This document shows, piece after piece, positions 3-26,454 of a DNA stretch of 64,000 nucleotides; position 1 is the first letter of the stretch, and every line of letters begins with the position of its first letter. This DNA is from Actinophytocola xanthii (GTDB lineage: Bacteria > Actinomycetota > Actinomycetes > Mycobacteriales > Pseudonocardiaceae), in contig NZ_MSIE01000030.1 in the NCBI RefSeq assembly GCF_001921205.1, positions 62,001 to 126,000 of the forward strand. Reading direction: 5' to 3'. Under the pieces are notes generated by a model, which was given only the letters and a program-made list of their open reading frames with translations, was not told the origin of the DNA and ran no database searches. The translations under genes were made by a program, and so were the position numbers.

Positions 3-947
3 CGGATCACGGCGACCGACCTGTCGCCGCGGGCGCTCGCCCTGGCCCGGGGCACCGTCCACCTCAACGAGCTGGACGTGGAGCTGCTGCGGGGCGAGTG
101 GTTCGACCCGGTGGGGGAGCGCCGGTTCGACCAGATCGTGTGCAACCCGCCCTTCGTCGTCGGCCCGGCGCGGGTGGACTACGTCTACCGGGACGCGGGG
201 CTCGCCGGCGACGGCGCGAGCGAGCTGGTCGTGCGGCGGATGCCCGACCACCTCACCGAGGGCGGGGTCGGTCAGCTGCTCGCGTCCTGGCTGCACCGCA
301 GGGGCGAGGACTGGGCGGACCGGGTCGACTCCTGGCTGCCGCGGGGCGTGGACGCCTGGTTCGTCCAGCGCGACGTCGCCGACCCCGCCCTCTACGTCGG
401 GACCTGGCTGCGCGACGCCGGCATCGACCCCCGGTCGCCGGAGGGGCGCGCCCAGGCCGACGCCTGGCTGGACTGGTTCGCCGCCAACGACGTCGAGGGC
501 GTCGGCTTCGGCTACGTGACCCTGCGGCGCACCGACGAGACCCCGACCCGCGTCGTCTGCGAGGACCTGCGCCACGCCTACGACGACCCGCTGGGACCGG
601 AGACCGCGCGCTGGCTGGACAACGTCGCGTGGCTGCGCGGGAACGAGGGCGAGCTGGCCAGCACCCGCTTCACCGTGCCGCCGACGGTCCTGCTGGAGGA
701 GGTCCACGAGCCGGCCGAGACCGGCTGGGCTTCCCTCGTTCGCAGGCTGCACCGTACCGACGGCCCCGGCTGGCAACACGAGGTCGACGAGCCGACCGCG
801 CGCCTGGTCGCCGGCTGCCGGGGCGAGCTGCCCCTGGAGGACCTGCTGACCCTGCTCGAGCTCGCCTACGGTGAGCTCGACCGGTCCGCCGCGCTGCCGG
901 TCGTCCGCGATCTCGTGCTGCACGGCATGCTGGTCCCGTCCCCGTGA
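3..947 (+). CDS. SAM-dependent methyltransferase (5' end outside window)
   Basis: The gene enters from the left edge; the frame is open from base 3, so the N-terminus and the glycine-rich SAM loop are missing. The visible part starts with an ATDLSPRAL segment, typical of the acidic motif II region, followed by IVCNPPFVV. The (D/N)PP(F/Y) tetrad is the signature of methyltransferases acting on planar nitrogen (HemK/RsmC/TrmN6 group). The remaining ~250 residues are a less conserved C-terminal region with no membrane segments. It is translationally coupled to the next gene by a GTGA overlap. Protein, RNA or small-molecule substrate cannot be decided from this fragment. The class is secure; the substrate is not. 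Confidence 0.75.
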   Translation, partial: RITATDLSPRALALARGTVHLNELDVELLRGEWFDPVGERRFDQIVCNPPFVVGPARVDYVYRDAGLAGDGASELVVRRMPDHLTEGGVGQLLASWLHRRGEDWADRVDSWLPRGVDAWFVQRDVADPALYVGTWLRDAGIDPRSPEGRAQADAWLDWFAANDVEGVGFGYVTLRRTDETPTRVVCEDLRHAYDDPLGPETARWLDNVAWLRGNEGELASTRFTVPPTVLLEEVHEPAETGWASLVRRLHRTDGPGWQHEVDEPTARLVAGCRGELPLEDLLTLLELAYGELDRSAALPVVRDLVLHGMLVPSP

Positions 948-1474
948 GCGGCGAGCTCGAGCGGGCCGAGGCGCTGCTCGTCGAGACCGGGGCGGGCGAG
1001 CTCCCGCACCCGGGTGGGACGCTGCTGGCCCACCTGCGGCGGGTGCGGGAGCTGCTGGCGGAGTGGGGCGCGCCGGCGCCGGTCCAGCTCGCCGGCCTCT
1101 GCCACGCCGCCTACGGCACCGACGGCTTCGGCGTCGCGTTGCTCGATCTCGAGGAGCGGGCGCGGCTCGTCGAGGCCATCGGCCCGGCGGCGGAGTCGCT
1201 GGTGTACCTGTACGGCAGCTGCGACCGGTCGGCGGTCTACCCGCGGCTGGACCAGTCCGAGGTGGCGTTCACCGACCGGTTCACCGGGGCCACGACCGTG
1301 CCGGCCGAGTGGCTGGTCCGCGGCTTCGTCGAGATCACCGCGGCCAACGAGCTCGACGTCGTCACGCACAACGCCGAGCTGGCGGCCGAGCACGGGCCGG
1401 CCCTGCACGAGCTGATGCGCCGCGCACGCCGCCATCTGTCCCCGGCGGCCGCCGCTCGATGGGAAGCCACCTAG
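944..1474 (+). CDS. DUF6817-type HD-like protein
   Basis: This 176-residue soluble protein starts at a GTG that overlaps the methyltransferase stop. The N-terminal half has a spaced histidine pattern (HPGGTLLAHL, then GLCHAAYGTDGF) resembling the metal-binding helices of HD-domain hydrolases and matching the pattern I know for DUF6817. No signal peptide or membrane segment is present. Coupling to the methyltransferase suggests a shared process, but the substrate is unknown. The stop codon abuts the convergent debranching-enzyme gene with no terminator space between them. Confidence 0.65.
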   Translation: MSGELERAEALLVETGAGELPHPGGTLLAHLRRVRELLAEWGAPAPVQLAGLCHAAYGTDGFGVALLDLEERARLVEAIGPAAESLVYLYGSCDRSAVYPRLDQSEVAFTDRFTGATTVPAEWLVRGFVEITAANELDVVTHNAELAAEHGPALHELMRRARRHLSPAAAARWEAT

Positions 1475-3508
1475 CTAGAACCAGTCGGGGGGCAGGCCGG
1501 TGACGGTGGCGGTGTCGGCGGTGGCGGTGAGGTCGACGGTGACCGGGCCGAGGCCGAGGCCGGACAGGGTGATGCCGCCCCAGCTCGGCGGCAGGCGCGG
1601 GGTGGTGGACAGCGTCCGGCGCGGGACGTGCGGGTCGAGTCCCAGGAGCGCGCGGACCAGCAGCAGCGGGGCCGCGGCCGCCCACGCCTGGGGCGAACAC
1701 GACGTCGGGTAGGGCACCGGCGGGCTGAACTCCTCCCTGGCGAAGCCGCAGTACAGCTCCGGCAGCCGACCGCCGAACGCGGCGGCGGCGTCCAGGACGC
1801 CGCCGGCCAGCCGCTGGGCCAGCTCGACCGCCCCGGGCAGGTGGGCGTAGCGGAGCAGACCGGCGACGGCGATGGCGGTGTCGTGCGGCCAGACCGAGCC
1901 GTTGTGGTAGCTCATGGGGTTGTAGGCGCCCATCGACGCCGCGAGCGTGCGCAGGCCGTAGCCGGTGTCCATGTCCGGCTCGCCCAGCCGCTCGACCAGC
2001 ACGGCCGCGTGCTCGTCGGTGGCGATGCCCGTCCAGAGGCAGTGCGCCGCGTTGCTGGTCAACGCGTCCACCGGCCGCCTGTCGCCATCCAGGGCGATGG
2101 CGAACCAGCCTCGCTCGGGTAGCCAGAAGCTCTCGGCGAACCGCTGCCGCAGCCGCTCCGCCCGCTCGCGCAGCCGGGCCGCGCCGGCGGGGTCGTCGAA
2201 CCACTCGGCGAGCTCGGCTCGGCCGAGCAACGCGGCGTAAACGTAGCCCTGGACCTCGCAGAGCGCGATCGGAGGGATGGCCGACCGGCCGCCGGCGTCG
2301 TTCACGCCGTCGGCGCTGTCCTTCCAGCCCTGGTTGACCAGGCCGCGGTCGGTGACCCGCCGGTAGGCGACGAAACCGTCGCCGTGCCGGGCGGTCCAGG
2401 CCAGCGCCGCGTCGGCGGCCGGGAGGAGCGCGCGCACCGCCTCCTCGTCGGCGCCCCACCGCCAGCACTCGGCCAGCAGCATCACGAACAGCGGCGTCGC
2501 GTCGGCCGTGCCGTAGTAGCGGCTGCCGCCGAGCACGGCCGCGCTGTCCGGGCCCCGGCGCAGCTCGTGCATGATCCGGCCGGGCTCCTCCTCGCTCGCC
2601 GGGGCGACCGCGCGGCCCTGCGCCTCGGCCAGGACCCGCAGGGTGCCCAGGGCGAGACCGACGTCCAGCGGCAACGCCATCCACGCGGTCAGCAGGCTGT
2701 CCCGGCCGAACAGGGTCATGAACCAGGGCGCCCCGGCGGCCACGAAGGGCCGGCCGTGGGCCGGGTCGTGCATCAGCAGCGCACCCAGGTCGCTCACCGA
2801 ACGGCGCAGCACGCCGGTCAGGGCCGGGTCGCCCGCGGTCACCTCGGTGCACGCGGCCCGCCAGGCCCGGGCCCCGCCGGCCGGCCCGCGCCGGGCCGGG
2901 GCGTCCAGCGGCCGGGCGGTCACCTCGGTCGACCACCGGCTCCGTGCCGGCACCACCACCCGCCAGCTCAGTGTGCCCGGCAGCACGGCCGGCCCCGCGG
3001 TGGCACCGACCGCCACGCCCCGTGCGCCGTCCGGGTCACCCAGCAGCAGCTCGCCGCCGACCACGCGCGGCTCCGCGCCGCCGGGTCGGGCCCGGCCCTC
3101 CTTGACCGCGAACAGGTCGGCGAGGTCCGCCGCCACGGTCAGCTCCAGCCGCACCTCGGCCGGCTCGCGGCCCAGGTTGTGCACGGTGACGGTTTCGCGC
3201 AGACCGTCGTCGACGACCCGGTCGCGCACCAGGAGCAGCGTGCTGCCGGCGCGCAGGACGAAGCGGGCGCCGAACGCCTCCCGCGCCAGGACCGTCAACG
3301 CCTGGGCGGGGTGCCCGTCCAGGCGCAGCTCCCAACGCGAGAGCACCCGGGTGTCCCGGACGAACAGGCCGTGGGCGGCGCCGGGCGCGATGTCGCCGGT
3401 GGCGTCGGACAGGCAGAAGGTCCCGCCCGCGACGAGGGTGACCCCGGCGGTCCCGGTCGGGGCGGGTTCCCCGGCGTTGAACGGGTCGGGCGGGTGCGGG
3501 TCGGTCAT
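1475..3508 (-). CDS. Glycogen-debranching-type (amylo-alpha-1,6-glucosidase family) protein
   Basis: The protein has 677 residues. The N-terminal ~200 residues form the beta-sandwich found in actinobacterial debranching-like proteins (GDE_N_bis type: TFCLSDATGDIAPG, HGLFVRDTRVLS). The C-terminal ~400 residues form an (alpha/alpha)6 barrel related to GDE_C and GH15/GH63 enzymes. Conserved barrel stretches are PWFMTLFGRDSL, GWKDSADGVND and SYHNGSVWPHD. No signal peptide is seen, so it should act in the cytoplasm on alpha-glucan or an oligosaccharide. ATG at 3508 is preceded by GGAGG; the longer upstream frame is non-coding. It is divergent from the TPP enzyme across a 96-bp gap. Confidence 0.8.
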   Translation of the reverse strand: MTDPHPPDPFNAGEPAPTGTAGVTLVAGGTFCLSDATGDIAPGAAHGLFVRDTRVLSRWELRLDGHPAQALTVLAREAFGARFVLRAGSTLLLVRDRVVDDGLRETVTVHNLGREPAEVRLELTVAADLADLFAVKEGRARPGGAEPRVVGGELLLGDPDGARGVAVGATAGPAVLPGTLSWRVVVPARSRWSTEVTARPLDAPARRGPAGGARAWRAACTEVTAGDPALTGVLRRSVSDLGALLMHDPAHGRPFVAAGAPWFMTLFGRDSLLTAWMALPLDVGLALGTLRVLAEAQGRAVAPASEEEPGRIMHELRRGPDSAAVLGGSRYYGTADATPLFVMLLAECWRWGADEEAVRALLPAADAALAWTARHGDGFVAYRRVTDRGLVNQGWKDSADGVNDAGGRSAIPPIALCEVQGYVYAALLGRAELAEWFDDPAGAARLRERAERLRQRFAESFWLPERGWFAIALDGDRRPVDALTSNAAHCLWTGIATDEHAAVLVERLGEPDMDTGYGLRTLAASMGAYNPMSYHNGSVWPHDTAIAVAGLLRYAHLPGAVELAQRLAGGVLDAAAAFGGRLPELYCGFAREEFSPPVPYPTSCSPQAWAAAAPLLLVRALLGLDPHVPRRTLSTTPRLPPSWGGITLSGLGLGPVTVDLTATADTATVTGLPPDWF

Positions 3509-3604
3509 TCCTGGCCTCCGGCGCGGATGGTGGCGGCGCCCCGGGTTTGCCCCGCGTGTCGGTGGGAACGCCGGCAGGAAGATCGCCCGCGTCGAGGAGG
3601 AGCC

Positions 3605-5422
3605 ATGAGCGAAGGTAGTCCCACCGGCGGCACGGTCGCCGACGCCCTTGTGCACCGCCTGCGCTCCTGGGGCGTCGCGCGGGTGTTCGGCTATGCCGGG
3701 GACGGTGTCGACCCGGTGCTGGCCGCGCTGAACCGGGCCGGCGGCGACCCGGAGTTCGTTCCCACCCGGCACGAGGAGATGGCCGCGTTCATGGCCTCGG
3801 GCCACGCCAAGTACACCGGGACGCCCGGGGTGTGCCTCGCCACCCAGGGACCGGGCGCGATCCACCTGCTCGCCGGCCTCTACGACGCGAAGCTGGACCG
3901 CCGCCCGGTGGTGGCGCTGGTCGGACAGGTCGTCTCGACCGCGCTGGGCAGCGGTTACCTGCAGGAGGTCGACCTGCATGCGTTGTTCAAGGACGTGTGC
4001 GGGCAGTACCTGCAGACGGTGTTCCGGCCCGAGCAGCTGCCGATGGTGCTCGACAACGCCATGCGCACCGCCATCGCGACCAGCACGCCGACCTGCCTGA
4101 TCCTGCCGCACGACGTGCAGCGGGCGGACGCGCCCGGGGAGCTCCCGCACACCCACGGCGTGGTGCCGTCCTCGGTCACCGTCGGCCGGTCCCGGGTCGT
4201 GCCCACCGAGGACGACCTGCGCCGCGCCGCGTCCGTGCTCGACAGCGGTCACAAGGTGGCGCTGCTGGTCGGCCGGGGGGCGGTCGGTGCCGAACGCGAG
4301 GTCGAGGCGGTCGTCGACCGGCTGGGCGCCGGGGTCACCGTGTCGCTCGTGGGCAAGCCGGTGCTCTCCGAGGACGCGCCGTGGCACACCGGCGTCATGG
4401 GCCACCTGGGCACAACCGCGAGCGCGGAGCTGATGGCCGAGTGCGACACGCTGCTGATCGTGGGCTCCAACGACCCGTGGACCGAGTTCTACCCGAAGCC
4501 GGGGCAGGCCAGGGCCGTCCAGGTCGACATCGACGCCAAGGTCGTCGGCGCCAAGTACCCGGTCGAGGTGGCGCTGGTCGGGGACACCCGGGAGACCCTG
4601 CGCGAGCTGCTGGGCCACCTGTCGCGCAACCCGGACCGGACCTGGCAGGAGCGGGTGGCGCGCAGCGTCTCGGGCTGGCGGGAGCTTGCCGAGCGGCGCA
4701 CCGGGCACCCGGCCGAGCCGCTCAACCCCGAGCTCGTCGTCCGCCGCCTGTCCGACCACCTGCCCCCGGACGTGCGGGTCGCGGTCGACGTCGGCTCCTC
4801 GACCTACTGGTACGCGCGGCACCTGCGCCTGCCGCCCGGCGTGCCGGCGCACGTGTCGAGCTACCTCGCGGCGATGGGCTGTGCGCTGCCCTACGGGCTC
4901 GCGGCCAAGCTCGACGCGCCGGACCGCCCGGTCGTCGCGCTCGCCGGCGACGGGGCGATGCAGATGAGCGGGCTGCTCGAGCTGATCACCGTCGCCGACC
5001 GCTGGCGCTCCTGGGCCGATCCGCGGTTCGTCGTGCTGGTGCTGCACAACGGGGACCTCAACGAGGTCAGCTGGGAGCAGCGCGAGATGGAGGGCGACCC
5101 GCGCTTCGCCACCTCCCAGCGCGTGCCCGAGTTCCCCTACGCCAACTACGCCGAGCTGCTCGGCCTGCGCGGCATCCGGGTCGACTCGCCCGACGCGGTG
5201 GACAAGGCGTGGCAGGAGGCGTTCGACGCCGACCGCCCGGTCGTCGTCGAGGCGGTCGTCGACCCCGACGTCCCGCTGCTGGCGCCCCACCTGCCGGACG
5301 AGAAGGTCGACATGATCTACCGCGGACTGGCCGCCGAGCCCGACAGCGGAGCCGCCCGCGAGCAGGTCCTACGCCAGCGCTCCGACGAGGGCCACGACGA
5401 CCGCGGCCGCGGGTCGTCCTAG
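3605..5422 (+). CDS. Thiamine-pyrophosphate-dependent enzyme (pyruvate oxidase/acetolactate synthase fold)
   Basis: This 605-residue cytosolic protein shows the three TPP-fold domains in order. The Pyr domain has the catalytic glutamate in RHEEMAAFMASGHAKYTG. The central Rossmann-like domain is around residues 190-330. The PP domain has the TPP/Mg motif LAGDGAMQMSG followed ~25 residues later by LHNGDLN. The length fits pyruvate oxidase or acetolactate synthase relatives; decarboxylation of a 2-oxoacid is the expected chemistry. The exact substrate is unclear, since no partner subunit gene is adjacent. The start is ATG 3605 with a strong GAGGAGG site. The ORF is open far upstream, but that part is antisense to the debranching gene. 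Confidence 0.8.
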   Translation: MSEGSPTGGTVADALVHRLRSWGVARVFGYAGDGVDPVLAALNRAGGDPEFVPTRHEEMAAFMASGHAKYTGTPGVCLATQGPGAIHLLAGLYDAKLDRRPVVALVGQVVSTALGSGYLQEVDLHALFKDVCGQYLQTVFRPEQLPMVLDNAMRTAIATSTPTCLILPHDVQRADAPGELPHTHGVVPSSVTVGRSRVVPTEDDLRRAASVLDSGHKVALLVGRGAVGAEREVEAVVDRLGAGVTVSLVGKPVLSEDAPWHTGVMGHLGTTASAELMAECDTLLIVGSNDPWTEFYPKPGQARAVQVDIDAKVVGAKYPVEVALVGDTRETLRELLGHLSRNPDRTWQERVARSVSGWRELAERRTGHPAEPLNPELVVRRLSDHLPPDVRVAVDVGSSTYWYARHLRLPPGVPAHVSSYLAAMGCALPYGLAAKLDAPDRPVVALAGDGAMQMSGLLELITVADRWRSWADPRFVVLVLHNGDLNEVSWEQREMEGDPRFATSQRVPEFPYANYAELLGLRGIRVDSPDAVDKAWQEAFDADRPVVVEAVVDPDVPLLAPHLPDEKVDMIYRGLAAEPDSGAAREQVLRQRSDEGHDDRGRGSS

Positions 5423-5431
5423 GGAACGTCC

Positions 5432-6352
5432 TCAGCCGCCTCGGACGGCCTGCCAGGCGTCGCCGAGGATGGTGGGCAGGTCGGACCGGACGGGGTGCCA
5501 GCCGAGCTCGGTCCTCGCCCGGGTGGGGTCGGCGACCAGGACCGGGGGCTCGTCGGCGGCCGGCGCGAACCGTACGGGCACGGGGCCCGCGGTGACCTCC
5601 TCGGCGACGGCGAGGACGTCGCGGATCGTCGTGCGCCGGCCGCTGCCGACGGTGTAGGCGCGCCACCGGCCGGGCACGCAGGCGTCCAGGGCGCGCACGA
5701 ACGCGTCGGCCAGGTCGGCGACGTGCAGGAAGTCGCGCTCGGCCGACCCGTCGCCGTTGACCACCAGCTCCGGCGCATTGCCGGCCCGCACGGCGAGGAC
5801 CTTCGGGATGAGCCGGGTGAGCTCGGTGTCGGCCCGGCCGGCGGCGGCACCGGCGACGTTGAAGGCGCGCAGGCTGACCGCGCCGACGGCGCCGCTCGCC
5901 GCGAGGTCGGCCGCGGCGAGGTCGGCGGCCAGCTTGGTCGCCGCATACGGGTTCCGCGGGTCCGCCGGCTGGTCCTCGTCGACGGGTTGACGCCGCGGGC
6001 TGCCGTAGACGGCGGCGGTGGAGGACAGGACCAGGCGTGCGGGCTCCGCGCGGGTGCGCAGCGCGGACAGGACGTTGAGCGTGCCGACCAGGTTCGTCCG
6101 CCAGTACTCCAGCGGCTCGGCGAACGAGTCGCGGACCCGGACGAGCGCGGCGAGGTGACAGACCGCGTCGGCCCCGGCCGCGGCGGCCGCCACCGCGTCG
6201 GCATCGCGAACGTCGGCTCGGACGAGCCGGTCGGCCCCGGGCGGAGCATTCCCGCGCCGGCCGAGCGCGGTCACGGCGTGGCCACGCTCGGCCAGCGCCG
6301 CGACGACGGCGTACCCGACGAAGCCGGTCGCGCCGGTCACCAGAACTCGCAC
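5432..6352 (-). CDS. NAD-dependent epimerase/dehydratase (extended SDR)
   Basis: The protein has 306 residues. It begins with the Rossmann dinucleotide motif VTGATGFVG and has the extended-SDR active site, with Ser in LSSTAAVYG and the YxxxK of NPYAATK. A substrate-binding loop with [13 protein letters not shown] is typical of nucleotide-sugar epimerases such as GalE-like enzymes. GTG 6352 is chosen because the Rossmann strand must start there and AGGGG lies just upstream; an upstream start would add an implausible tail. Only 44 bp separate it from the divergent RNase Z gene. The sugar nucleotide acted on is not evident. Confidence 0.8.
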
Positions 6353-6396
6353 GGGTCCCCCTGGGGTCGGTGCACGATACGTGGGATTCTCTCGCG

Positions 6397-7329
6397 GTGT
6401 CCTCACGTGAGCTGGTCGTGCTCGGGACCGCGAGCCAGGCGCCCACCCGGTACCGCAACCAGAACGGGTACCTCCTGCGGTGGGACGCGGAGGGTCTGCT
6501 GTTCGACCCGGGCGAGGGCACCCAGCGCCAGATGCTGCTGGCCGGGGTGAGCGCGCGGGAGATCGACCGCGTCTGCCTCACGCACTTCCACGGTGACCAC
6601 TGCCTGGGCGTGCCGGGCGTGGTGCAGCGGCTCTCGCTGGACCGGGTGCCGCACGTCGTCGAGGCGCACTACCCGGCCTCGGGTGCCGAGTTCTTCCGGC
6701 GGTTGCGGTACGCGACCTCCTTCCACGAGGTGGCGGAGCTGCGTGAGGTGCCGGTGGAGCGGGACGGTCCGGTCGCGACCGGGGCGTTCGGGACGCTCGA
6801 GGCGCGCCGCCTGGACCACCGGGTCGACGCGTTCGGCTACCGGCTGGTCGAGCCGGACGGGCGGCGGATGCTCCCCGAGGCGCTGACGCGGCTGGGGGTG
6901 AGCGGCCCGGACGTGGGCGTGCTGCAGCGCGAGGGCGTTCTCGAGCACCGGGGCAGGTGGGTGGAGCTGGCCGAGGTGAGCGTGCCGCGGCCGGGACAGC
7001 GGTTCGCGTTCGTGATGGACACCCGGCTCTGCGACGCGGTGTACGCGCTCGCCGACGGGGTGGACCTGCTGGTGATCGAGTCGACCTTCCTCGACGAGGA
7101 CGCCGGGCTCGCCGCCGAGTACGGGCACCTCACCGCGGCGCAGGCGGCCCGGGTCGCCCGCGAGTGCGGGGTCCGCCGGCTCGTGCTGACCCACTTCTCG
7201 GCCCGCTACGCCGACCCCCGCGCGTTCCACGACGAGGCGGCCGGGATCTTCGACGGCGACGTCGTCGTGGCCGAGGACCTGGCCAGGGTCCCGGTCCCGC
7301 CGCGGGAGCACGCCGGTGTACCGGGGTAG
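6397..7329 (+). CDS. rnz: Ribonuclease Z
   Basis: This 310-residue metallo-beta-lactamase-fold nuclease should process the 3' ends of tRNA precursors. The zinc motif [11 protein letters not shown] (His63, His65, Asp67, His68) and the C-terminal THFSARY motif are both present. The N-terminus [10 protein letters not shown] with [10 protein letters not shown] is characteristic of the actinobacterial enzyme. GTG 6397 matches the usual start of the family; a GTG 27 bp upstream is possible. No Shine-Dalgarno is seen, so the message may be leaderless. It is a stand-alone housekeeping gene. Confidence 0.88.
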
Positions 7330-7377
7330 GTGCCAACCACCCGCCAGCCGCGTTCCCAACCTCACAGGACAGAACAC

Positions 7378-9000
7378 CTAGACCGCGAGCCAGACCGCCG
7401 TGTCCGGCGGCAGGGTGTCCCGGACCGGGGCGCTGGACAGCAGCACCTCCTCGTGCTCGGGCAGCGGCCAGGGGGTGGAGCCGAGGTTGACCGCGCACAG
7501 CAGACCCGGTTCCCGGCGGAAGGCGAGCACGCCGGGCGGGGTGTCCAGCCAGGACAGGTCGCCGTCGCCGAGGGCTTTGTGGTTGCGGCGCAGGGCGATC
7601 CCGGTGCGGTAGAGGGAGAGCATCGAGCCGGGGTCGGCGGCCTGGGCCGCCGCCGTCCGGTCGCGCCAGTGCTCGGGTTGCGGCAGCCAGGGCCGGGAGC
7701 CGTGGGGGGAGAAGCCGAACGGGGGAGCGTCGCCCTCCCACGGGATCGGCACCCGGCACCCGTCCCGGCCGCGCGCGGTGCGCCCGGAACGGTGCCAGGT
7801 CGGGTCCTGCAGCAGTTCCTCGGGCAGGTCCTCGACCTCCTCCAGACCGAGCTCCTCGCCCTGGTAGAGGTACACGCTGCCGGGCAGCGCCAGCATCAGC
7901 AGCACCGCGGCCCTGGCGCGGCGGGTGCCGAGCTCGAGGTCGGCCGGCTCCACCGGCTCGCTCTGCGGACCGGTACCCCGGGTGTCGGGGCGCCCGTAGC
8001 GGGTCACGTGGCGGGTCACGTCGTGGTTGGACAGCACCCAGGTGGCCGGTGCACCCACCGCGCCCAGCGCCGCGAGGCTCGAGTCGATCACCGCGCGGAA
8101 CCGGCCGGCGTCCCAGGGGCAGCGCAGGAAGTCGAAGTTGAACGCGGTGTGCAGCTCGTCCGGGCGCACGTACCGGGCCAACCGGTAGGGCGGGGCGACC
8201 CACGCCTCGGCGACGAAGATCCGGTCCGGGCCGTACTCCTGCGCCACCCGGCGCCAGGCGCGGTAGATCTCGTGCACCTCCGGCCGGTCCCAGTGCGGGT
8301 GGTCCGGCGGGTCCGGCGGCTCCATCAGGTCCTCGAGGTCGGCCCCCACGTCCGGCAGACCGTCCGCCTTGACCAGGCCGTGGGCGACGTCGATGCGGAA
8401 GCCGTCGACGCCGCGGTCCAGCCAGAACCGCAGGATGTCCTCGAACTCGGCACGCACCTCGGGGTGGTTCCAGTTCAGGTCGGGCTGCTCGGGGGCGAAC
8501 AGGTGCAGGTACCACTCCCCGTCGGCGGTCCTGGTCCACGCCGGACCGCCGAACACGCTGCGCCAGTCGTTGGGCGGCGTGCCGTCCGCGCCGCCCGGCC
8601 GGAAGACGTAGCGGTCGCGCTCGGGCGAGCCGGGGCCGGCCGCCAGCGCCCGGCGGAACCAGGGGTGCTGGTCGGAGGTGTGGTTGGGTACCAGGTCGAC
8701 GATCACCCGCAGCTCGTGCCGGTGCGCGTCCTCGAGCAGGGCCTCGGCGTCGGCGAGCGTGCCGAACAGCGGGTCGATGTCCCGGTAGTCGGCTACGTCG
8801 TAGCCGCCGTCGGCCATGGGCGAGCGGTACCACGGCGTGATCCACAGGGCGTCGGCTCCGAGGTCCCGCAGGTGGCCGAGCCGCGAGCGGATCCCGGCGA
8901 TGTCGCCGACACCGGACCCGTCGCGGTCGGCGAAGCTGCGGACGTAGACCTGGTATACAACGGCGTCGCGCCACCACGGGCTGTGCTGATCCACTCGCAT
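7378..9000 (-). CDS. GH13 alpha-glucosidase / alpha-amylase family protein
   Basis: The protein has 540 residues without a signal peptide and should cleave alpha-1,4 or alpha-1,6 gluco-oligosaccharides in the cytoplasm. All four GH13 regions are visible: DLVPNHTSD, GFRIDVAHG (nucleophile Asp204), FVAEAW (acid/base Glu265) and LSNHD (Asp327). The DLVPNHTSDQHPWF form of region I is that of oligo-1,6-/alpha-glucosidases rather than endo-amylases. Its GGGAGGT ribosome site lies across the stop codon of the upstream GNAT gene, so the aldolase-GNAT-GH13 genes form one coupled operon. The functional link among the three is not obvious. Confidence 0.85.
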   Translation of the reverse strand: MRVDQHSPWWRDAVVYQVYVRSFADRDGSGVGDIAGIRSRLGHLRDLGADALWITPWYRSPMADGGYDVADYRDIDPLFGTLADAEALLEDAHRHELRVIVDLVPNHTSDQHPWFRRALAAGPGSPERDRYVFRPGGADGTPPNDWRSVFGGPAWTRTADGEWYLHLFAPEQPDLNWNHPEVRAEFEDILRFWLDRGVDGFRIDVAHGLVKADGLPDVGADLEDLMEPPDPPDHPHWDRPEVHEIYRAWRRVAQEYGPDRIFVAEAWVAPPYRLARYVRPDELHTAFNFDFLRCPWDAGRFRAVIDSSLAALGAVGAPATWVLSNHDVTRHVTRYGRPDTRGTGPQSEPVEPADLELGTRRARAAVLLMLALPGSVYLYQGEELGLEEVEDLPEELLQDPTWHRSGRTARGRDGCRVPIPWEGDAPPFGFSPHGSRPWLPQPEHWRDRTAAAQAADPGSMLSLYRTGIALRRNHKALGDGDLSWLDTPPGVLAFRREPGLLCAVNLGSTPWPLPEHEEVLLSSAPVRDTLPPDTAVWLAV

Positions 9001-24132: not shown

Positions 24133-24468
24133 CTACCTCAGGGCGACGGTGAGGAGGACGGCGGCGTCGGTGAGGGCGATGAGGCCGTGCCGCTCGCTGG
24201 GGACGGAGGTGAGCTGGCCGGCCGCCAGGATGGCGCCGTCATCGTGGGTGTGGAGGCGGACGGTGCCGGTGACGACGAACAGGGTGGCCGCTGGTGGCGA
24301 GTCGTGTTCGGCCAGCTCCGCACCTTCGCTCAGCGCGATCAGGGTGGCGCGCTGCGACGTCCCGGTGACCAGGGTTCTCGACGCCCGTCGCGAGTGGTGC
24401 GTGCCGGCCTCGGCCAGCAGTTCGGCGGCCAGGGCGTCTACCTGGGTCACAGCGGGGTGGTCGGTCAT
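24133..24468 (-). CDS. Small cupin-domain protein
   Basis: This 111-residue protein has a single predicted cupin barrel: SEGAELAEHDSPPAATLFVVTG is the first motif and HTHDDGAILAAGQLTSVP the turn into the second. The usual metal-binding histidines are only partly kept. ATG 24468 overlaps the stop of the truncated narI frame (ATGA), so it was once co-translated with nitrate reductase. It now has no intact partner, and no promoter of its own is obvious. The function is unknown; a sensory or stabilising role near respiratory genes is inference. Confidence 0.65.
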   Translation of the reverse strand: MTDHPAVTQVDALAAELLAEAGTHHSRRASRTLVTGTSQRATLIALSEGAELAEHDSPPAATLFVVTGTVRLHTHDDGAILAAGQLTSVPSERHGLIALTDAAVLLTVALR

Positions 24469-24665
24469 GGGGTGCGCTCCCATCCTCGGCGAGGGGTTCG
24501 GTTGCCCAGCCGCTGCTCGCGGCTCCGGTAGACGATATAGGGCCGGGTCAGGTAGCCGAGTGGCATCGAGAACACGTGCACCAACCGGCTGAACGGCCAG
24601 AACGCGAACAGCGCCCAGGCCGCCAGGGCGTGCAGCTGGAACCCGAGCGGCGCGACGGGCGGTGG
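24465..24665 (-). pseudogene. narI: C-terminal remnant of respiratory nitrate reductase gamma subunit
   Basis: The frame ending at 24465 encodes about 60 residues that I recognise as the NarI C-terminus: APLGFQLHALAAWALF, WPFSRLVHVFS and GYLTRPYIVYRS. His in the HALAAW and LVHVFS segments corresponds to haem-ligand helices. The first four membrane helices are absent. The reading frame loses NarI character at about 24655-24665, just before the stop of the radical SAM gene at 24692. No narG, narH or narJ is in the window. It is best read as the scar of a deletion or replacement. Confidence 0.7.
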
Positions 24666-24691
24666 CCAGGCCCAGCATGCGCCGCCCGCCT

Positions 24692-26047
24692 TCACACGTT
24701 AGGGGCTAATGGCTCTGGAGTGCGCAGGCCGAGGGCGTGGCCGTAGCGGCTGAGCCGCATCGGCAGCGTCTGCTTGACCGACGGGCAGGCCGGCGTCCCC
24801 TCGCCCCAGACCAGGGGGCAGCTCCCACCGCAGATCGGGAAGATCGGGCAGGTCGGGCAGTAGGCCTCGGTGTCGCCGAGCAGGTGCTCGTTCCAGTCGT
24901 CGTAGCGACCGGGCGGGCGGATCCGCGGGGCCGGGAGCCGGGTCACATGACCCAGTGCCGTGTCCTCGCGGCCGGGCACCAGCGGCTGCTCGGTGCAGGA
25001 GTGCACCGCCCCGCCGGGGGCGATGACCTCGGCCCGCCGGTTCACCGCCACACACACCATGTGCTTGCGGGCGATGGGCAGCTCACTCCTGGTCAACCCG
25101 AACTCGGCGTAGGCGTCCAGCCACCGCCGTTCGATGTCGACGACGTCGGCCGGCGCGACCGCGTAGTCGGAGACGTCGTTGCCCCACTCGCGGACCAGCG
25201 CCGTGTAGAACCGGACCTTGGCGTCGGCCAGGCCGGCGTCGCGGGCGGCCCGCGCGAACTCGCGGTGCTCGTCCTGGTTCGCCCGACTGATGTTCGTGCG
25301 GATGCTGAACCGCAGCGCCGGCAGGTCGGTGGCGGCGCAGGCGGCCGCGATCGTCGAGGTGATGTGGTGGAAGCTGCCCCGGCCGCTCTTCAGCGGGCGT
25401 TGCGCGTCGTGCCGCGCCGGTGGCCCGTCCAGGGTGACCTCGAAGGAGGTGACCCGGCAGTCGCGGTGCAGCCGGCGGATCTTGTCCACGGTCAGCAGCG
25501 ACCCGTTGGTCACCATCTTGGCCGAGTAGGGGATGCCAGCGAACTCGCACACCGGGATGATGTCCGCCGACAGGTCGAGGATCTGGGCGTAGCCCATCAT
25601 CGGTTCGGCGCCGAACCAGCAGACGCCGACGCCGGTCGTCGCGGGGTCCTGCGCGGCCGCCGACAGCCGCGCCTTGACCGCGTCGCGGTGCTGCTCCCGT
25701 CTCGGCAGCCGGACGTGGTTCTGGCCGCAGTAGCCGCACCCCATGTTGCAGTACGCCGCGGGCATCAGGACGAACATGCGGTCGGTGTTGGCCGCGATCC
25801 GAGCGCGGTTCTCCTCGACGATCTCGCTGAACTCGTCCCGGGAGTCGGCGACGAGAATCCCGGCGGCGGCCATTTCGGCTCGTTCGTTCTCGGCGAGCAG
25901 GGCCGGCCGGTGCAGCAGGCGGTCGAGCACGTCGGTGCCGAGCAGGTAGACCTGACCCGAGGCGGTATGCAGCACGACGCGGACCCGCCTGCCGCCGTCG
26001 TCCATAAGCGTCTCGTCGGACAGGACCAGAAACTGACTCGCTCGCAT
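24692..26047 (-). CDS. Radical SAM/SPASM peptide-modifying enzyme
   Basis: The protein has 451 residues. Residues 1-85 are an N-terminal domain without cysteine, possibly a peptide-recognition module. The radical SAM cluster motif CNMGCGYC (Cys100, 104, 107) starts the barrel; CWFGAEPMM is the SAM-contacting GGEP-like strand. A SPASM-type tail supplies Cys332, 351, 397, 400, 406, 410 and 421, the last five in a C-x2-C-x5-C-x3-C-x10-C pattern able to hold auxiliary 4Fe-4S clusters. The gene directly follows a Cys-rich peptide gene on the same strand, the usual layout of RiPP maturases. The bond formed (thioether, cyclophane or other) cannot be read from sequence. Confidence 0.82.
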   Translation of the reverse strand: MRASQFLVLSDETLMDDGGRRVRVVLHTASGQVYLLGTDVLDRLLHRPALLAENERAEMAAAGILVADSRDEFSEIVEENRARIAANTDRMFVLMPAAYCNMGCGYCGQNHVRLPRREQHRDAVKARLSAAAQDPATTGVGVCWFGAEPMMGYAQILDLSADIIPVCEFAGIPYSAKMVTNGSLLTVDKIRRLHRDCRVTSFEVTLDGPPARHDAQRPLKSGRGSFHHITSTIAAACAATDLPALRFSIRTNISRANQDEHREFARAARDAGLADAKVRFYTALVREWGNDVSDYAVAPADVVDIERRWLDAYAEFGLTRSELPIARKHMVCVAVNRRAEVIAPGGAVHSCTEQPLVPGREDTALGHVTRLPAPRIRPPGRYDDWNEHLLGDTEAYCPTCPIFPICGGSCPLVWGEGTPACPSVKQTLPMRLSRYGHALGLRTPEPLAPNV

Positions 26048-26076
26048 GAGAGGCCCCCTGCCTCGTGTCGTGGGCC

Positions 26077-26115
26077 GGTGTGGGGCGCGGTCGTCCGACG
26101 TCGGCGCCCCACACC
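26077..26115 (-). terminator. Hairpin between precursor and radical SAM genes (probable attenuator)
   Basis: A perfect 12-bp inverted repeat (GGTGTGGGGCGC 26077-26088 with its complement at 26104-26115) and a 15-nt loop begin 5 bp after the precursor stop. In RiPP operons such a partial terminator would keep peptide message in excess over enzyme message. Confidence 0.55.
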
Positions 26116-26120
26116 AGGAC

Positions 26121-26345
26121 TCAGCAGCAACTGTCGTTGTTGGACTGTTGACAACAACCCCAGTTGGTCATCGCGACGTAGTCGCTCGACCCGGGTGTCA
26201 CGTTGGCGAGCACGCTCGAGCCGGCGGTGGTCGTCGACTCCGCGCTGGCCGTACCGGCGGTCAACATCGGTGCGACGGCGAGCGCGCCGGCCACGGCGGT
26301 GGTCGCGGCGAAGCGTTTGATGAACGTGTTCCGATCTTCGTTCAT
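26121..26345 (-). CDS. Cys-rich precursor peptide (putative RiPP substrate)
   Basis: The 74 residues start at ATG 26345 with a strong GGGAGGG ribosome site. Residues 1-35 look like a Sec signal: basic FIKRF, a hydrophobic run ALAVAPMLTA and a TASA-ES cleavage site. Residues 36-60 are Ser/Thr/Gly rich. The tail NWGCC-QQSNNDS-CC ends the protein with two vicinal cysteine pairs (Cys64-65 and Cys73-74) after a Trp. All four cysteines are in the last 11 residues, as expected of a modified core. It resembles no RiPP family I can name. The signal peptide and lack of a transporter gene suggest Sec export after or without modification. Confidence 0.7.
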   Translation of the reverse strand: MNEDRNTFIKRFAATTAVAGALAVAPMLTAGTASAESTTTAGSSVLANVTPGSSDYVAMTNWGCCQQSNNDSCC

Positions 26346-26404: not shown

Positions 26405-26432
26405 CTGGACGGCCACTGGACATCGCCTGGAC
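26405..26432 (-). promoter_or_regulatory. Three 11-bp-spaced direct repeats upstream of the peptide gene
   Basis: On the minus strand GTCCAG occurs three times at exactly 11-bp intervals (plus-strand CTGGAC at 26405, 26416 and 26427), 60-87 bp before the precursor ATG. One repeat per helical turn is the layout of activator sites such as SARP boxes (heptamers with 4-bp spacers). A convincing -10 is not seen; TTCCAT at about the right distance is the best candidate. Confidence 0.45.
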
Positions 26433-26454
26433 ATGGCTTGCCGGCGAGCGGTGT

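Follow-up and report, generated by a model that had tools for sequence, protein, structure and literature searches.

A conserved two-gene radical SAM locus in Actinophytocola xanthii, a candidate thioether peptide system with a signal-peptide-like precursor leader

A stretch of 64,000 nucleotides from Actinophytocola xanthii (assembly GCF_001921205.1, contig NZ_MSIE01000030.1, positions 62,001 to 126,000), here called the window, carries a small gene for a cysteine-rich peptide next to a gene for a radical S-adenosylmethionine (SAM) enzyme. An earlier inspection of the letters alone (the sequence-only reading) had described a 74-residue peptide and a 451-residue enzyme with a CNMGCGYC site and seven SPASM cysteines, which the open reading frames (ORFs) and matches to PF04055 and TIGR04085 bear out. 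The pair has the following features, given in window positions.

26121..26345, minus strand: precursor peptide gene, 74 aa; an ORF whose homologues adjoin the orthologous enzyme in three other loci (L002, L003, L004); profile match E 1.1e-36, the profile including the window peptide as a row
26241..26345, minus strand: signal-peptide-like leader, residues 1-35, ending TASA-ES; basic n-region, hydrophobic stretch and A-x-A end in 5/5 close precursors; hydropathy
26193..26219, minus strand: conserved segment S43-P51 (SSVLANVTP), suggested enzyme-recognition strand; V45, L46, V49, T50 and P51 invariant in four aligned peptides
26124..26165, minus strand: core N61-C74 with two NxxC sites; C64, C65, N70, C73 and C74 are invariant columns of the four-peptide alignment
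24692..26047, minus strand: radical SAM/SPASM maturase, 451 aa; NCBIfam and Pfam matches, AlphaFold model, Foldseek
25778..26047, minus strand: RRE-like domain at the maturase N-terminus (residues 1-90), in which the elements follow the order beta-beta-beta-alpha-alpha-alpha and the pLDDT block means are 85-96; Foldseek match over the whole length to the RRE-bearing CteB
24785..25054, minus strand: SPASM region, residues 332-421, seven cysteines; TIGR04085 above cut-off, all seven invariant in 19/19 aligned enzymes

The precursor (ORF 26345-26121) runs in the order MNEDRNTFIKRF...TASA-ES...NWGCCQQSNNDSCC, with all four cysteines in the last 11 residues. Both cysteine pairs follow an NxxC spacing, overlooked in the sequence-only reading: N61-WG-C64 (then C65) and N70-DS-C73 (then C74). 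The neighbouring enzyme (ORF 26047-24692) scored above the cut-off of Radical_SAM (PF04055), and its CNMGCGYC site supplies the CxxxCxxC motif through C100, C104 and C107. The SPASM-region cysteines lie at positions 332, 351, 397, 400, 406, 410 and 421, a spacing that matches the seven-cysteine SPASM motif; the SPASM model TIGR04085 gave 29.4 bits (cut-off 27).

A contig scan for the adjacent pair, which the sequence-only reading had proposed to look for in other genomes, returned three close relatives of the enzyme, in Actinomadura spongiicola (L002), Actinomadura pelletieri (L003) and Amycolatopsis xylanica (L004). These enzymes are 62-71% identical to that of the window (best segments 71, 71, and 63%). 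A small cysteine-tailed gene lies just upstream of each, and two such genes in L004; the adjacent pair is thus present in 4/4 loci with an enzyme at least 62% identical. Peptide identities to the window are 47% (L002), 44% (L003), and 36% (L004). Aligning the peptides of the window, L002 and L003 with one of L004 left the cleavage-site alanines, V45-L46, V49-T50-P51, C64, C65, N70, C73 and C74 invariant; the second L004 peptide, outside this alignment, reads VLKNIT at the segment matching S43-P51. The core had been described as a Trp followed by CC, seven residues and CC, with conservation of WGCC and of the terminal CC as a check. The clustering in the last 11 residues and the invariance of all four cysteines stood; the Trp did not, being replaced by Val in both Actinomadura peptides and missing in Amycolatopsis. 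The loop between the pairs has 7 (window), 9 (L002) or 8 (L003) residues, while the pairs themselves are constant.

The two Actinomadura copies of the peptide gene differ by a nonsynonymous rate (dN) of 0.043 and a synonymous rate (dS) of 0.112, and the window and A. spongiicola copies by dN 0.38 and dS 1.25; both comparisons indicate that the peptide evolves as a coding gene. Besides the adjacent genes, a precursor profile search of five genomes found one further precursor, which lies immediately upstream in Amycolatopsis (L004; E 2.4e-9); the remaining matches had E 0.0029 or weaker. Flanks were compared by blastp of ORFs of at least 40 aa, with ~6 kb around L002-L004 and ~10 kb around the window, and with L002 against L003 left out for their shared flanks. 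Matches over 60 bits between the genera were confined to the enzyme, to frames within its gene and to the peptide, which cleared this line only for L003 and the window; the neighbours of the pair differ in each genus. Because both genes also adjoin each other in two Actinomadura species and in Amycolatopsis xylanica, the pair is no chance pairing of ORFs, and the conserved two-gene unit is almost certainly real. The four C-terminal cysteines could also give two disulfides in an unmodified secreted peptide that merely lies beside an unrelated orphan maturase. We regard this as very improbable, given the retention of the pair in four genomes of three genera with differing surroundings, the two precursors in Amycolatopsis, and a hairpin between the genes in all four (see below).

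The pair is rare and patchily distributed. At E 1e-20 or better, 7/200 genomes of the same family had an enzyme match (its own, five at 38-39% and one at 28% identity); matches also occurred in 2/65 genomes of Actinomadura, the genus of L003, and in 1/80 of Amycolatopsis, the genus of L004; a search of its own genome at E 0.001 returned no match besides the enzyme itself. In the window the pair is flanked on one side by an apparent rhamnose operon, read from ORF translations only, and on the other by a narI stub. The stub (24465-24695, minus strand), directly behind the maturase, is the C-terminal part of NarI and covers profile positions 173-217 only. Nothing else in the assembly (204 contigs, 97.7% complete) matches NarI, which suggests that the pair may have been inserted into a nar locus since lost.

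Comparison of enzyme and peptide with family models, another check proposed earlier, placed the enzyme above cut-off for PF04055 and TIGR04085 and below it for every maturase model of ribosomally synthesized and post-translationally modified peptides (RiPPs). The best NCBIfam model was TIGR04463 (rSAM_vs_C_rich; E 1.1e-46), whose score of 159.5 bits against a cut-off of 525 rules out assignment to the TIGR04463 maturases; the enzymes of L002, L004, L014, L032 and L011 are also under this cut-off. A TIGR04463 relative in Methylomagnum (L013) adjoins a long protein with a cysteine at every fifth position. Next in score came the CefB, Clo7bot, geopeptide, FlmE/OhkG, PapB, DynA, QhpD (TIGR03906) and SCIFF models, all far under cut-off. 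None of the curated cut-offs of the SCIFF, Clo7bot, CefB, geopeptide, PapB, FxsB, GrrM, AmcB and YhhB maturase models was reached by the window enzyme, all being missed by far. Among the NCBIfam models, the window peptide matched only one for an iron oxidase (E 0.021, 15.1 bits, cut-off 100).

The AlphaFold model of the enzyme reached a mean pLDDT of 81.9 and a pTM of 0.82, with the active-site loop 98-115 below 50. Its top Foldseek matches, and hence its nearest solved fold, were chains of the SCIFF (thermocellin) maturase CteB (5why, 5wgg; E ~1e-12, TM by query 0.48-0.62), which shares the RRE, radical SAM and SPASM layout (PMC8326336). The two differ in sequence, with 14-15% identity and a SCIFF model score of 33.6 bits against a cut-off of 425. 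The N-terminal RRE of CteB is described as holding the leader as a strand (PMC8326336), and by analogy S43-P51 is probably a strand bound by the RRE-like domain of the window maturase.

The spacing of asparagine and cysteine was followed through a first set of 20 enzyme loci (window, L002-L009, L011, L012, L014-L016, L032-L037); the distant L010 and L038-L045 lay outside the precursor survey, save for an ORF listing of L010. Precursor candidates were found in 14/20 loci, 17 peptides in total, those of L011 and L016 being chosen partly by eye. Asn stands three residues before a Cys in 17/17 peptides, and at position -3 for 26 of their 39 cysteines; the runner-up is position -4 with 16, partly owing to the second Cys of CC pairs. 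Around the enzymes of L005-L009 and L037, the small ORFs that lie no more than 700 bases away and have a Cys among their last 12 residues included none convincing by eye, a survey that an internal-Cys precursor, as in L012, would escape. L012 (4671-8596), a relative on a Rhizobium etli plasmid, has a 77-aa precursor with an interior NSGC and a gene for a JmjC-domain protein downstream. L011 (4735-9520), a Streptomyces plasmid variant, encodes a 33-aa precursor ending NGNC, a related maturase, a methyltransferase, a SagB/ThcOx-type dehydrogenase and an MFS protein.

Two points weigh against the motif as a modification site. The tail of the window peptide is rich in Asn, so that NxxC is fairly likely by chance in this peptide alone: shuffling gave the motif in 46% of cases and two sites in 1398/20000 shuffles, and it also occurs in 15/80 small background ORFs whose tail contains N and C. 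Moreover, the distant sister enzyme clades (L005-L009; L037, L068, L070-L073) show no convincing NxxC peptide in the stretch examined. As single peptides can have NxxC by chance, the argument rests on the family, and as candidates were partly chosen by eye, the rule was tested on new loci. A family search of 295 genomes gave 26 matches; less 3 known ones, 23 new loci were left. Each was examined for a frame on the strand of the enzyme that stops between 450 bases before and 60 bases after the enzyme start and has NxxC in its last 15 residues. This was found in 16/23 loci on the same strand versus 2/23 on the opposite strand, the loci being related and thus no independent draws, and the enzyme starts approximate. 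The same-strand counts for other patterns were NC 1, NxC 1, NxxxC 2, NxxxxC 0, CxxN 3, AxxC 7, TxxC 5, and GxxC 4. A stricter rule (ATG/GTG/TTG start, 20-130 aa) gave 14/22 loci (L073 not recognised), L052 and L067 being added later. Five second-sample loci (L068, L070-L073) had neither NxxC nor DGGC in the stretch examined. Beside close enzyme relatives, the precursor tails of L064 and L069 read DGGC in place of NxxC, a natural Asn-to-Asp swap at the predicted acceptor.

A tree built from 43 enzymes joins the four rows of the window clade (100/100) to 16 rows that come from a single other family of the order; of the resulting 20 rows (98/97), 18 have NxxC and 2 have DxxC; deeper joins of the enzyme trees are uncertain owing to long branches. 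Taken over the family, NxxC is likely to be the modified site. The sequence-only reading had been unable to match the core to a named class, a statement that no longer holds: both cysteine pairs follow NxxC, and the occurrence of the motif in precursors through much of the enzyme family points to the NxxC/ranthipeptide thioether type.

The streptococcal NxxC RiPPs NxxcA and NxxcB, of ranthipeptide type, likewise have Asn three residues before the modified Cys and a small precursor that serves a radical SAM/SPASM enzyme as substrate (PMC8326336, PMC13361665). In contrast to these, the window pair has a signal-peptide-like leader, two NxxC sites with a second Cys after each, and actinobacterial hosts, NxxcB being compared by description only. 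NxxcB is described as linking Cys to C-beta of an Asn upstream of it (Cys23 to Asn20; PMC8326336, PMC13361665), and freyrasin as having Cys-Asp beta bonds (PMC8326336, PMC13361665, PMC11002830). On the window enzyme, the models scored 57.2 (PapB), 57.1 (DynA), 55.4 (QhpD), 33.6 (SCIFF), and 28.7 bits (RumMC). PapB, the enzyme of the ranthipeptide freyrasin, and QhpD, which both form non-alpha thioethers, outscore the sactipeptide enzyme RumMC here and wherever all three are listed, although bits are only roughly comparable across models.

Against a beta-carbon bond stand the equal score of the cyclophane (dynobactin) model DynA, the position of TIGR04463, CefB, Clo7bot, geopeptide and FlmE/OhkG above PapB, and the NCBIfam name of the sister precursors, "aroma-sacti", which implies the alpha-carbon. 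With DynA so near PapB, and SCIFF at 33.6 bits, the ranking of models is weak evidence. Given the analogy to NxxcB, a bond on the Asn beta-carbon would be about an even call.

The same pair with the same export could instead set the sulfur on an alpha-carbon, of Asn or another residue, as in sactipeptides. The aroma-sacti peptides (NF045560) belong to a related enzyme clade (L032-L036, 37-40% identical to the window enzyme) and have NxxC tails; the name was returned for 2/2 sister precursors tested, and there was one weak match to the sactipeptide model StsA (27.1 bits, cut-off 75). The aroma-sacti model (cut-off 30 bits) had no match from the window peptide, from L002 or from either L004 peptide. 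SPASM enzymes are described as forming both alpha- and non-alpha-carbon thioethers (PMC8326336). As the NxxC spacing is that of the known beta-thioether in NxxcA, and PapB and QhpD rank above RumMC, we consider an alpha-carbon bond unlikely, though with an appreciable remainder of probability. Less probable is another modification around NxxC, such as epimerization or a crosslink through the Asn side chain or between carbons, with the cysteines as metal or disulfide ligands. The CC pairs do look like such ligands, radical SAM/SPASM enzymes have many outcomes, and DynA scores like PapB; the Asn-to-Cys spacing is nevertheless constant over otherwise unrelated tails, and the nearest solved fold is a thioether former.

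The secretory build of the N-terminus reported by the sequence-only reading was found again in 5/5 precursors of the four close loci: by a rule-based test, each begins with basic residues, continues with a hydrophobic stretch and ends in A-x-A (TASA, AASA, VASA, AASA, VANA). The best 15-residue Kyte-Doolittle means were 1.71 (window), 1.45 (L002), 1.44 (L003), and 1.96 (second L004 precursor); a value of 1.5 is reached by 11/191 background ORFs, so that hydropathy is supportive, not decisive. As the Amycolatopsis leaders contain RR and the others KR, Tat export may also come into question. Further leaders appear signal-like by eye (L014, L015, L052-L055, L057, L059, L063). A single origin of such leaders, likely in the first tree, is unsupported by the 43-enzyme tree, in which LLQH-type leaders come in between; the signal-like type may have arisen twice or undergone a loss.

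The absence of a dedicated transporter and protease, also claimed earlier, agrees with the flank comparison, in which only the pair was shared, and no transporter or protease gene common to the window-type loci was found in the flanks and neighbourhoods compared. The neighbourhood comparison covered 19 loci (4 window-type, 6 other signal-leader, 5 LLQH, 4 aroma-sacti) and GC3-filtered ORFs of at least 90 aa, with L002-L004 only to 6 kb and one member per cluster run against Pfam. An S8 peptidase gene cluster, typed by its L085 member, occurred in 4/4 aroma-sacti, 3/5 LLQH and 0/10 signal-leader loci, and an MFS gene cluster, typed likewise, in 4/4 aroma-sacti and 0/10 signal-leader loci. The aroma-sacti precursors differ from that of the window: their leader lacks the signal build, and their loci have S8 protease and MFS genes. 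The recurring aroma-sacti set (L085, 10054-17367; 3 or 4 of 4 loci) comprises MFS, an AAA/guanylate cyclase protein, the S8 protease, a GAF protein and a 323-aa protein without Pfam match; except for MFS it is also found in 3/5 LLQH-type loci. In L074 (genome G482, 937-7854), genes for a YcaO protein, a Lant_dehydr_C/nitroreductase fusion and two proteins without Pfam match lie ~2-9 kb from a signal-leader NxxC pair; their relatives occur in 3 to 5 of 6 neighbourhoods of this type, and the locus is possibly a hybrid RiPP cluster.

Several observations weigh against secretion by this leader. Hydropathy of the Actinomadura leaders is modest (1.44-1.45). An ABC-ATPase-like gene, judged from sequence, lies ~4 kb downstream in L077 (1/10 signal-leader loci); 3/5 LLQH loci have similar genes at different distances. 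In L004, a gene for a membrane dipeptidase (M19) is found ~1.5 kb downstream. Furthermore, where one precursor combines a signal peptide with an RRE target, its export must be held off until it is modified. The N-terminus could thus be an ordinary hydrophobic RiPP leader, never exported by Sec and served by a transporter and protease elsewhere in the genome, a reading also favoured by the non-secretory leaders and nearby S8 protease and MFS genes of other family members, and by the signal-like leaders of L014 and L015, which have no basic residue ahead of the hydrophobic stretch. We judge it rather improbable, because the A-x-A position is constant in 5/5 close precursors though the hydrophobic stretch drifts, and because none of the window-type loci compared shares a transporter or protease gene. 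Export by Sec and signal peptidase appears likely.

Two further features, again in window positions, surround the precursor gene.

26075..26117, minus strand: intergenic RNA hairpin with a 14-bp stem between precursor stop and enzyme start; folding, shuffle z -2.81
26405..26433, minus strand: SARP-operator-like array of three TGTCCAG/CGTCCAG heptamers, repeated every 11 bp, ahead of the precursor; a pattern built from this site matched once in the window and never in 100 shuffles

A hairpin separates the genes in all four close species (shuffle z -2.3 to -2.95); in Amycolatopsis it sits after the second precursor, not between the two. A strong hairpin, with a longest stem of 12-14 bp, follows the precursor stop in 10/10 first-set gaps folded (window, L002-L004, L011, L015, L032, L034-L036; L012, L014, L016 and L033 were left out). 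Random windows, which are no intergenic controls, gave stems of at least 13 bp in 6/2000 cases at 66 bases, 16/2000 at 76, and 43/2000 at 130, the gaps of L011 and L015 measuring 126-140 bases. Among 18 later loci with a precursor, 11 gaps were long enough to fold (stems 10-15 bp), and in 7 LLQH-type loci the genes overlap or nearly abut, leaving no room for a hairpin. We read the hairpin as a putative partial terminator that would keep the precursor in excess. The heptamer array, likened to SARP operators (PMC5930380), is the only match in its own genome to the pattern derived from it. No operator common to all relatives was found, the heptamers being absent from the L002-L004 promoters; next to the L004 precursors lies a BTAD/SARP gene in divergent orientation. 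In the promoter stretches ahead of the aroma-sacti precursors of L035 and L036, palindromes centred on CTTAAG (TTCTTAAGAA-like; at least two copies in L035) were seen by eye and are probable operators of another regulator.

In the mechanism we propose, residues 1-35 would act as the secretory signal, and the RRE-like domain would probably bind the hydrophobic segment 43-51. Still in the cytoplasm, the radical SAM/SPASM enzyme would take hydrogen from the Asn side chain and link the Cys sulfur there, most likely at C-beta as in NxxcB. The product would contain two four-residue rings, N61-C64 and N70-C73, with C65 and C74 remaining as thiols or forming one disulfide. Export by the general secretory route and a signal peptidase I cut after A35 would follow, a proposed order of steps in which the unit would need no dedicated transporter or leader peptidase, while the hairpin would hold precursor output above enzyme output. 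Once secreted, the peptide may serve as a thiol or metal binder, or inhibit growth. On balance we favour, with some reserve, a compact two-gene thioether RiPP system in which general secretion and signal peptidase replace its own transporter and protease.

That the N-terminus has the build of a secretory signal was correctly seen earlier, and its unusualness overstated. Sec-type or lipoprotein signals on Cys-containing RiPP precursors are described for bufferins and other substrates of multinuclear iron oxidases (PMC12452194) and for DAG-RiPPs (PMC12636315); the modifying enzyme there is a multinuclear iron oxidase, in the window a radical SAM enzyme. According to the former source, RiPP precursors seldom carry Sec signals, and bufferins are the only ones for which a native host has been shown to use its Sec machinery (PMC12452194). 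Our literature search, which covered few subscription papers and supports no claim of absence from print, found nothing on TIGR04463 or aroma-sacti and, by title and abstract, no radical SAM RiPP with a Sec signal peptide. Each part has precedents; the combination was not met in the literature searchable.

Tentatively, the locus may represent a secretory branch of radical SAM RiPPs, with a bipartite leader of signal peptide and recognition strand, export and cleavage by the host, and duplicated NxxC-C units giving two Asn-Cys rings and two spare, perhaps metal-binding, thiols; aroma-sacti, LLQH-type and other non-secretory relatives would then belong to one largely actinobacterial family of NxxC-modifying enzymes. 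If true, a two-gene system would make, export and trim a stapled peptide with host machinery, which would be useful for engineering secreted thioether peptides. Scattered, mostly actinobacterial precursors would also be tied to one core rule, Asn (sometimes Asp) three residues before Cys, and a rule so readable would make their chemistry directly testable.

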